Source: Caldicellulosiruptor kronotskyensis 2002 | GTDB taxonomy: Bacteria; Bacillota; Thermoanaerobacteria; Caldicellulosiruptorales; Caldicellulosiruptoraceae | Length of the DNA: 64,000 nt | Reading direction: 5' to 3' | Assembly: GCF_000166775.1 (NCBI RefSeq) | Contig: NC_014720.1 | Span: 2,574,001 to 2,638,000 of the forward strand | Part shown: piece by piece, positions 51,356-55,294 of the stretch | How positions within the stretch are numbered: position 1 is the first letter of the stretch | Layout: every line of letters starts with the position of its first letter | The notes under the pieces: generated by a model | What the model was told of the DNA's origin: nothing | The model's input: only the letters and a program-made list of their open reading frames with translations | Database searches by the model: none | Translations under genes and position numbers: made by a program

Positions 51356-51391
51356 TTCACTTCACCATTCCCTTTTTTAGGTAAAATAAAA

Positions 51392-51530
51392 CCACCTCTC
51401 CTGACTTTTTAACCTTTTCAGCCAAAAGAGGTGGATTTATGTCTTATTATTGACATCATCCCATTCCCCTCCTTATCAGGCCATGATACCCTCTAAGTCA
51501 GGATCAAATATTTTGTTTGTTAATATTATA
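51392..51530 (-). promoter_or_regulatory. Structured leader (attenuator or riboswitch candidate) upstream of the TM1266-type gene and hydG
   Basis: A TATAAT -10 (51530-51525) starts a leader. Near its 5' end TCCTGACTT (51503-51495) is perfectly complementary to AAGTCAGGA (51407-51399), and the adjoining AGAGG (51494-51490) to CCTCT (51431-51427). In conflict, CCACCTCT (51434-51427) pairs with AGAGGTGG (51399-51392), followed by TTTTATTT, a terminator. Inner hairpins TATCA/TGATA (51488-51474) and ATGTC/GACAT (51456-51439) lie between. A 13-codon ORF (MMSIIRHKSTSFG, 51459-51418) with AGGAGGGG upstream ends inside the terminator loop. I do not recognise a known riboswitch class. Confidence 0.6.
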
Positions 51531-53258: not shown

Positions 53259-53864
53259 TTGCTAAGTGTGCAAAAAGTTAAAGAGATATATGCTATCTGC
53301 CGAAGAACACTAATAAACTGGGAGAAGGAAGGGTTAATAACACCTCTCAGGACACCGAAGGGAAGGAGAAGGTATAAAAAAGAAGACATAGAAAAGCTAC
53401 TTGGTATGATAGAGGAAAAACCAAAACCAACCGTTGTTTTGTATGCAAGAGTCTCCACTAAAAAGCAAGAAGAGTACCTTAAAAACCAAATTAGAAGACT
53501 TGAAGAATATGCCAAGTCTCAAGGTTGGCAGTATGAAATTATATCTGAAATAGCCAGCGGAGTGAATGAAAACAGGAGAGGACTATTAAGACTTTTGAAC
53601 AAAATCAAAAGAGGAGAAGTTGCAAAAGTTGTAATAAAGTATCCCGACAGACTTGCAAGGTTTGGATTTGAATATCTTAAGTTTTTCATGGAGAGTTTTG
53701 GAGTAGAACTTATAGTGTTAAATGGCAGAGAAAATGAAGAAGATATTAACAGAGAACTGGCAGAGGACTTAATAGCGATAGTAACATCTTTTGCAGCAAG
53801 GATTTATGGACAAAGAGGTGCTAAAAGACATGGTAACAGTTCAGGCGAAGTTAGTGTTCGATAG
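53259..53864 (+). CDS. tnpA: IS607-type serine recombinase TnpA
   Basis: The 201-residue protein has an N-terminal MerR-like helix-turn-helix (CRRTLINWEKEGLITPLRTPKGRRRYKKED, in part) and a small serine recombinase domain whose catalytic serine is in LYARVSTKKQ. Other matches are LLRLLNKIKRGEVAKVVIKYPDRLARFG and VTSFAAR. It should catalyse excision and insertion. The start is a TTG behind AGGTGATG. It overlaps the tnpB start by about 35 bases and appears intact. Confidence 0.92.
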   Translation: MLSVQKVKEIYAICRRTLINWEKEGLITPLRTPKGRRRYKKEDIEKLLGMIEEKPKPTVVLYARVSTKKQEEYLKNQIRRLEEYAKSQGWQYEIISEIASGVNENRRGLLRLLNKIKRGEVAKVVIKYPDRLARFGFEYLKFFMESFGVELIVLNGRENEEDINRELAEDLIAIVTSFAARIYGQRGAKRHGNSSGEVSVR

Positions 53865-55294
53865 AGAGGAAGACAAAAAGGCAGTATTAGATCTTATGAG
53901 AAGATGGTCCTCTTGTATGAGGTATGCATACAAGAGGTTACTTGAAGGTCACAAAAGGAATGAACTCAAAAGGCAACTGCAAGGAATTTTTAATCTTAAT
54001 TCCCGATACGTTGATGATGCAATAATGAAAGCAAACAGTGTTTTAAACTCATGCAAAGAAAGAGGAGAAAATCCTGAAAAGGTCATTTTTGGTGGTAGGC
54101 AACTTTTTGAAAAACTAAAGAGGCGGCACATAAACGGCAAAGCAAATAGGAAACTTCAACTTAAGTGGCAGGAGAAAAGGAAGGGGAGTCTGTACTCAAG
54201 AGGAGACAGGAGCAAAAAGGGAAATCTCAATACAAGGATTGAGATAGACGGAAACTTCACAAAACTCAGGATTAACGTAGGAGAAAGAGAGTACGTATAT
54301 GCGACGATACAAGCTGGATGGAAGATGAAAGGTAAGACATACATGGATAGGAACCTACTGCTACAAGCGATAAGCAGCTCAAGTGAACCTTATTCTGTAG
54401 AACTGAAACTCAAAAACGGTGTAGTATATAGCCTACTTCACCGTTGAAGAAGTTTTCCCACAGCCTGCGATAATGAGAGCAAATGGAGTTATAGGGATAG
54501 ACACTAACGCATATCCAAAGAATGTTGCATGGGCAGAAACAGATGAGTACGGACAGTTTCTGGGATATGGCAGAATACCACTTGAGAAGCTTGAGAGTGG
54601 AAGCTCAAGCAAGAGAGAGTATTACAGGTGGCAGTATGCACACATGATAGTACAAATGGCGAAAGAGAAGAAAAAAGCGATAGTGATTGAGAACCTTAGC
54701 ATACAGGACAGGGGCAGAAGAGGCGACTTTTCAGGTAGAAAATCAAGACGGATAAGGCACTATTTTGGGTACAGGTCACTTTTGGAAAAGGTAAAACTTC
54801 TGGCAAAACGGGAAGGAGTAGAGGTTATAGAAGTAGACCCTGCGTATACTTCGGTAATAGGGATGTTGAAGTATGCACCGCAGTTTATGGTGAGCAAGGA
54901 TATTGCGGCAGCGTATGTAATAGCGCGAAGAGGACTTGGCTTGAGAGAAAGGATACCGCACAATTATATGCTGCTTCTTAGTAGTCTTGATACAAACAGC
55001 ATGGAAGAACTAAAAGAATACGTAAAGAAGGTAGTTAAGAACCCGAACGTTAGGAGAAAACAACTCAAAGCGATAGATAGGGTGATAGGGATTTTACAAA
55101 GCTCTGGGAGTGAGCCAGGGAGGCTATCCGTGCCTCTGGATGGAACAAGTGCGGGTAGTCGTGGCAAAAAACACAATCCCTGGCGAGTTCTTAGGGTAGC
55201 GGTGGTAACGCCACTCTCTCCTGACAGAGTCCTGCGTGATATGTCTGTCTTGAAATCGCTTTTGATTTCAGGGCAAGTGGGGAGACCCGGCTAA
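53830..55294 (+). pseudogene. tnpB: TnpB (Cas12-like RNA-guided nuclease) broken by one frameshift
   Basis: Frame 1 runs from an ATG (53830, or 53806) to a TGA at 54445; the rest of the protein is in frame 2 to 55294. The frames join at the TATATA tract near 54425-54430 (VVY then AYFTVEEVF), so one inserted base explains the break. The RuvC-like residues remain: the Asp in GVIGIDTN, the Glu in VIENLSIQ and the Asp in SKDIAAAYVIARRGLG. The usual CxxC zinc finger is absent, as in a TnpB subgroup of thermophilic Firmicutes. It is inactive unless the frameshift is programmed. Confidence 0.85.

Follow-up and report, generated by a model that had tools for sequence, protein, structure and literature searches.

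The window, i.e. the whole stretch of 64,000 nucleotides that was analysed, carries on its minus strand an operon whose first gene belongs to the TM1266 family and which continues with hydG. Upstream of the operon lies a leader in which competing folds are present. The features referred to below are:

51552–51525, minus strand: promoter-like site TTCAAA-16-TATAAT with an extended −10 TG, predicted from the sequence
about 51518–51356, minus strand: leader of the TM1266-hydG operon
51504–51465, minus strand: putative switch hairpin (anti-antiterminator) of 40 nt, matched by covariance model R1
51502–51500/51469–51467, minus strand: stem P1 of the hairpin
51497–51494/51475–51472, minus strand: stem P2 of the hairpin, CUUA/UAAG
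51491–51489/51480–51478, minus strand: stem P3 of the hairpin
51499–51498/51471–51470 and 51493–51492/51477–51476, minus strand: the two purine internal loops of the hairpin (GA/GA)
51474–51466, minus strand: 3′ strand of the hairpin, AAGGAGGGG, which serves the leader ORF as Shine-Dalgarno sequence and is also the putative antiterminator strand
51503–51495, minus strand: TCCTGACTT, 5′ partner of a long-range helix, with AAGTCAGGA (51407–51399) as its 3′ partner
51459–51418, minus strand: leader ORF of 13 codons, MMSIIRHKSTSFG and stop, between hairpin and terminator, the stop lying in the terminator loop
51434–51420, minus strand: 5′ arm of the terminator, CCACCTCTTTTGGCT, from the minimum free energy (MFE) fold
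51406–51392, minus strand: 3′ arm of the terminator, AGTCAGGAGAGGTGG, from the MFE fold
51391–51383, minus strand: T-run of the terminator, TTTTATTTT, read in the sequence
51355–51110, minus strand: TM1266-family gene, first gene of the operon and proposed effector (TIGR03959, 118.7 bits; cut-off 60.8)
51106–49655, minus strand: hydG, radical SAM maturase of the H-cluster (TIGR03955, 660.5 bits)

At 53259–55294 the window also holds ORFs that, from a reading of their translations, resemble an IS607-type serine recombinase and a TnpB-like protein, the latter split across two ORFs (53791–54447 and 54473–55294).

In the promoter-like site ATGTTATAATATTAACAAA is nearly invariant in the genus (12 of 12 species), and on sequence grounds transcription is predicted to start at about 51518, i.e. 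upstream of 51407. The first-pass annotation had described a riboswitch- or attenuator-type leader with mutually exclusive folds, which the sequence and its relatives bear out. All pairings named in it are present on the minus strand: TCCTGACTT is complementary to AAGTCAGGA, and the extension AGAGG (51494–51490) to CCTCT (51431–51427). The terminator was also rightly located (CCACCTCT...AGAGGTGG followed by TTTTATTTT), its stem having 15 bp, however, rather than the 8 bp given. Besides this longer stem, the leader contains two features beyond that description, a compact 5′ hairpin with two GA/GA internal loops and the 13-codon ORF. Taken alone, the 9-bp long-range complement is mildly unusual, being reached in 14 of 300 dinucleotide shuffles, and the case must therefore rest on comparison and not on a single sequence. 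The 140-nt leader folds with −44.5 kcal/mol (z = −4.76 relative to shuffles, 0 of 200 as good), and its MFE state is the 40-nt hairpin with the two GA/GA internal loops, followed by the 15-bp terminator.

All 12 species of the genus have the leader; among them the hairpin is nearly invariant and folds alike in all, CCACCTCTTTTG in the 5′ arm of the terminator is invariant, the loop sequence of the hairpin varies and the region between hairpin and terminator differs in length. Recognisable versions with different terminators were found in another family (L044, L053) and, with tandem hairpins, in a third (L050, L056). Two partial DNA matches elsewhere in the organism's own genome were discarded, since they comprise merely terminator/RBS and promoter fragments. 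In the same genome a stretch of 49 nt (358642–358690; L002:1500–1550), 78% identical to the terminator end of the leader and the start region, sits 3′ of a tRNA-like sequence and is without an intact gene; it is perhaps a remnant.

Covariance model R1, built on a seed of 21 sequences, matched the hairpin with 41.9 bits (E = 5.8e-9), which was its sole match in the window; R2 is a refinement on 104 sequences. Both strands of the hairpin share the consensus CCUGA-N4-RAGGG, which yields two equivalent purine internal loops (in percent, 5′ strand: C 92, C 100, U 98, G 82, A 71, N4, R, A 97, G 96, G 100, G 76; 3′ strand: C 74, C 100, U 99, G 97, A 87, N4, R, A 84, G 92, G 100, G 96). The unpaired purines of the internal loops are near-invariant (G 97%, A 97%). 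Covariation among relatives, which the first-pass annotation had named as the check, was scored on 112 distinct sequences (alignment A7), and the paired positions do covary, those of the middle stem P2 strongly: the share of pair cells that form is 94.8%, covariation scores 0.463 compared with 0.125 for shuffled alignments (0 of 500 as high) and at most 0.111 for slid strands, and double changes occupy 225 cells where 77 are expected from shuffles.

Since the choice of the seed had partly required P2 to pair and since alignments made with a covariance model favour their own structure, a non-circular test was added. A pattern silent on P2 (CCTG/RAGGG/CCTGA/AGGGG) was scanned over 85,000 species, and the pairing of P2 was then scored allowing an offset of 1 nt. 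Of 95 matches, 31 precede hyd or associated transporter genes at a distance of at most 900 nt; in this group P2 pairs in 19 of the 31, versus 10 of the 64 elsewhere (p = 1e-5). The hyd-upstream matches include members of the Omnitrophota, Chitinispirillum, Syntrophaceae, Kiritimatiellae and Thermotogae as well as Moorella thermoacetica, Caldicoprobacter and Thermosediminibacter. In 124 regions upstream of TM1266, sampled across the phylum, a pattern that demands no pairing matched 29 loci (1 in the antisense and reversed controls), and a stricter, paired pattern gave 16 matches and 0 in the same controls; the element is specific to the RNA strand. The hairpin is a conserved, covarying RNA structure tied to one pathway. 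The first-pass annotation had recognised no known class in the leader, and likewise no family of Rfam 15 matched the window at the gathering threshold; relaxed E-values gave, for the window and its relatives, chance or unrelated matches only. In the open-licence literature, to which the search extended, no description of an RNA switch of hydG, the H-cluster or TM1266 was found.

An intrinsic terminator follows the hairpin in 72 of 100 leaders as compared with 8 of 500 shuffles. The duplex of the 3′ strand of the hairpin with the 5′ arm of the terminator amounts to −10.0 kcal/mol within a leader, to −9.0 kcal/mol when leaders are cross-mated (p = 0.027) and to −8.0 kcal/mol when they are shuffled (p = 8e-7), and the remaining three combinations of strand and arm showed no significant complementarity. 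For 26 leaders of the Thermotogota group the means for this duplex are −23.9 (own), −17.8 (cross-mated) and −12.3 kcal/mol (shuffled), with p = 5e-5 and 3e-8, respectively. The pairing of hairpin strand and terminator arm, which is mutually exclusive with the hairpin, thus exceeds cross-mated and shuffled controls. As judged from these sequences, the leaders show the anatomy of an attenuator.

The long-range helix, which the first-pass annotation had taken for the key element, does not have this role; the conserved element is the local 40-nt hairpin instead. The pairing of the 5′ strand with the 3′ arm of the terminator was rejected as a general antiterminator, for outside the genus its complementarity is not in excess of that after cross-mating. 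Within the 12 species GTCAGG of its 5′ partner does not vary, not even where the opposing terminator arm changes. The helix appears to be a genus-specific addition at best. In the leader of the window (L012) the duplex of 3′ strand and 5′ arm has −12.8 kcal/mol and the long-range helix −14.2 kcal/mol, and both may operate there.

Upstream of TM1266, hydG, hydE or hydF the covariance model finds the element in all 12 species of the genus, more widely in the same phylum, in 49 of the 103 Thermotogota-group genomes (R2) and in several further phyla. The first recognised gene behind 100 leaders is TM1266 in 64, hydG in 16, hydE in 14, hydF in 3 and an ECF transporter gene in 3. Of the Thermotogota group 29 leaders were read, and in these the element stands before TM1266-hydG, hydG or hydF; one genome (G525) has a copy about 63 nt before its TM1266 match and a second before hydF. 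Tandem hairpins, which may give a cooperative response, occur at 12 of the 100 loci; at eight loci (L050, L056, L067, L096, L135, L142, L161 and L177) two hairpins about 8–15 nt apart were seen with a single terminator downstream. Weak R1 matches at L222, L242–L244, L247, L253 and L254 were rejected as false because of their context or low score.

We incline to the view that the genes for [FeFe]-hydrogenase maturation are under transcription attenuation by this leader, the hairpin being stabilised by TM1266 in feedback repression. RNA polymerase would first make the 40-nt hairpin with its two equivalent purine internal loops. In the closed hairpin the 3′ strand would be unavailable, the downstream terminator would form and transcription would stop; in the open one the 3′ strand would pair with the 5′ arm of the terminator to give the antiterminator, and the maturase genes would be transcribed. 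We infer the effector, its ligand and the direction of control, the last from the geometry of pairing: antiterminator and hairpin share the 3′ strand and hairpin and terminator are compatible, so that a closed hairpin should mean termination. In the transporter leaders, which are without a terminator (L210, L218, L318), and in certain leaders of hydG (L225, L237) the Shine-Dalgarno sequence of the gene is formed by the 3′ strand itself, and OFF is therefore predicted here too when the hairpin is closed, which would hide this strand and block translation. A factor that stabilises the hairpin would repress the operon by feedback; it would be the TM1266 protein, probably as a two-fold-symmetric oligomer that reads both equivalent loops. 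A second layer of control may come, in the genus of the window, from translation of the leader ORF and from the long-range helix. Hairpin plus terminator of the window (−43.8 kcal/mol) are already more stable than the antiterminator of the first-pass annotation (−36.6 kcal/mol), for which reason an activator instead of a repressor is possible.

The choice of TM1266 as effector comes from its distribution. In 398 genomes of the same phylum, typed for HydG and TM1266 and searched with R2, matches at E ≤ 0.01 were found in 98 of the 180 genomes that have both proteins, in 1 of the 32 that have HydG without TM1266, in 5 of the 22 that have TM1266 without HydG and in 10 of the 164 that lack both, and at E ≤ 1e-4 in 77, 0, 0 and 0, respectively, these being counts that ignore phylogeny. 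The single HydG-only match (G130) and three inspected matches in genomes with neither (G229, G263, G301) lie inside ORFs; on this ground the inspected matches in genomes without TM1266 (L364, L366, L367, L376) were rejected as due to chance. All 49 positives of the Thermotogota group are among its 65 genomes with both proteins, and its five HydG-only genomes (G481–G485) have none. In the two samples together, 0 of 37 HydG-containing genomes without TM1266 carry a match adjacent to hyd genes, which makes TM1266, usually the first gene, the likeliest effector. In the genomes reached via the pattern scan TM1266 scored above cut-off in 14 of 15, a proportion that by itself is near the base rate; many of these 14 have the hairpin before hydE or hydG. 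Many genomes with TM1266 are without a detected hairpin, and one metagenome-assembled genome (G423; L301), which may be incomplete, has the hairpin and only a weak TM1266 paralogue.

The main alternative is a small-molecule riboswitch, which in our estimation is rather unlikely. Here the hairpin, as one copy or as a tandem pair, would bind a metal or metabolite linked to the assembly of the H-cluster (candidates are SAM, tyrosine, iron and a maturation intermediate) and close without a protein, the OFF logic being retained. Anatomy and regulon are equally compatible with it, and it could account for the near-invariant purines in the internal loops and for the tandem copies; the control of an ECF transporter alongside biosynthesis is riboswitch-like as well. 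However, the hairpin is short, has variable loops and shows neither a junction nor a pseudoknot, and the motif follows TM1266, not HydG alone, an association that speaks in favour of a partner protein. With the distribution, direct sensing of a ligand agrees less well than does TM1266 as protein effector, which is our leading reading of the sequence comparisons.

TM1266, a protein of about 80 residues, belongs to family TIGR03959/PF21699, is annotated as putative regulator of the iron-only hydrogenase system and has a solved structure (PDB 2nzc); no target had been assigned to it in the material searched. It is weakly similar to the C-terminal part of NikR. NikR carries an N-terminal DNA-binding domain, which is absent from TM1266, and no other recognised DNA-binding domain is present in the protein. 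Nor does TM1266 have a recognised RNA-binding signature; three basic residues are invariant in the alignment (R15, R36 and K76, alignment numbering), which is suggestive at most. More tentatively, and as a proposal that we hold to be plausible without calling it probable, TM1266 could found a class of RNA-binding regulators that sense the assembly state of the H-cluster, clamp the pseudo-symmetric hairpin as a two-fold-symmetric oligomer and shut off the maturases. If so, the sensed state could be iron, an amino acid or a maturation intermediate, the RNA-level regulon would extend over Thermotogota, Bacillota and four or more further phyla, and a protein long known from structural genomics as a putative regulator would have found its target. 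Every genome of the genus of the window (L017–L029) encodes a second, divergent TM1266-like protein (27–34 bits with TIGR03959), which possibly belongs to the CPF_0552 family.

That translation of MMSIIRHKSTSFG governs the terminator, the hairpin merely gating the Shine-Dalgarno sequence of this ORF, appears improbable to us. All 12 species of the genus have the ORF, its start codon 8–14 nt after GGAGG in spacers of 24–35 nt (the AAGGAGGGG of the hairpin reads GGGAGGGG in one species), and it crosses the 5′ arm of the terminator in one frame to end in ...STSF(G/D/V)-stop; some leaders of the Moorella type also have short ORFs directly 3′ of the hairpin. This conservation within the genus is suggestive; but a shuffled spacer yields an ORF of this kind with a probability of 0.12–0.42 per species, and the species are related. 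Moreover, the ORF contains no run of regulatory codons, its STSF part is set by the terminator arm, and no comparable ORF is apparent in L044 and several leaders of the Thermotogota group.

Very improbable is a leader that is unregulated or regulated differently, in which the hairpin is simply stable and the terminator efficient in part, both only lowering expression: the MFE state of the window leader would agree with this, whereas the conservation of an internal-loop hairpin across several phyla, its covariation and a leader-specific complementarity of hairpin and terminator are unexpected without switching. A DNA operator for a transcription factor, brought to mind by the partly repeated halves CCTGA/AGGGG, can practically be dismissed, since matches occur on the sense strand only, P2 shows compensatory changes and the element is situated either at the Shine-Dalgarno sequence or a short way before the terminator.

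In the PyrR attenuators of the Bacillus pyr operons the leader contains anti-antiterminator, antiterminator and terminator, and there are several such leaders per genome. The present element would work by analogy with PyrR attenuation and is not classed as a member. It shares the three-part leader, a proposed effector that is the operon's own first gene, and the occurrence of several leaders per genome. It differs in that neither sequence nor Rfam matches, the first gene is of the TM1266 family and not pyrR, the hairpin has two equivalent purine internal loops, and the pathway is H-cluster assembly rather than nucleotide metabolism; also, effector and ligand are putative. The RAT elements of the antiterminators LicT and SacY (BglG family) overlap the terminator, and protein binding turns the genes ON. 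Like these, the hairpin is small and has two similar internal loops, which would suit a symmetric protein dimer. Unlike them, it lies upstream of the terminator (4–128 nt from the end of the hairpin to the start of the terminator, without the RAT-type overlap with the 5′ arm) and is compatible with it, its closing is expected to mean OFF, and the system is not one of the BglG family. With riboswitch classes of Rfam 15 such as guanidine-II it has in common the OFF layout, via a terminator or masking of the Shine-Dalgarno sequence, and the sometimes tandem arrangement; its conserved positions, however, are in internal and not in terminal loops, and no Rfam family matches.

[FeFe]-hydrogenases are major H2-producing enzymes of anaerobes. 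By its position before genes for TM1266, hydE, hydF and hydG in several phyla, one RNA element delimits a regulon of the maturases and predicts the target of an orphan regulator. It is a concrete handle for H2-producing thermophiles, e.g. Caldicellulosiruptor and Thermotoga, and adds genes to the pathway, namely those of an ECF/ABC transporter and of aspartate ammonia-lyase.

At L210:1501–2037, L214, L218:2520–3053, L219 and L318 the hairpin is located directly on the RBS of a gene for an ECF substrate component (PF12822), followed by genes for a Peripla_BP_6 binding protein and a branched-chain-type permease; the transporter possibly imports a precursor of the H-cluster. At L223:301–3145 and L365 hydF is in an operon with aspartate ammonia-lyase behind the hairpin, which suggests a role of ammonia supply in H-cluster assembly. 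Weak R1 matches lie at an ORF with a Molybdopterin domain (L246) and at a TRAP transporter (L373). At L377 (G184:C16) a good hairpin and a clean terminator precede an ORF of 185 amino acids without Pfam match, downstream of which there are a MutS-like gene and then a histidine kinase gene.
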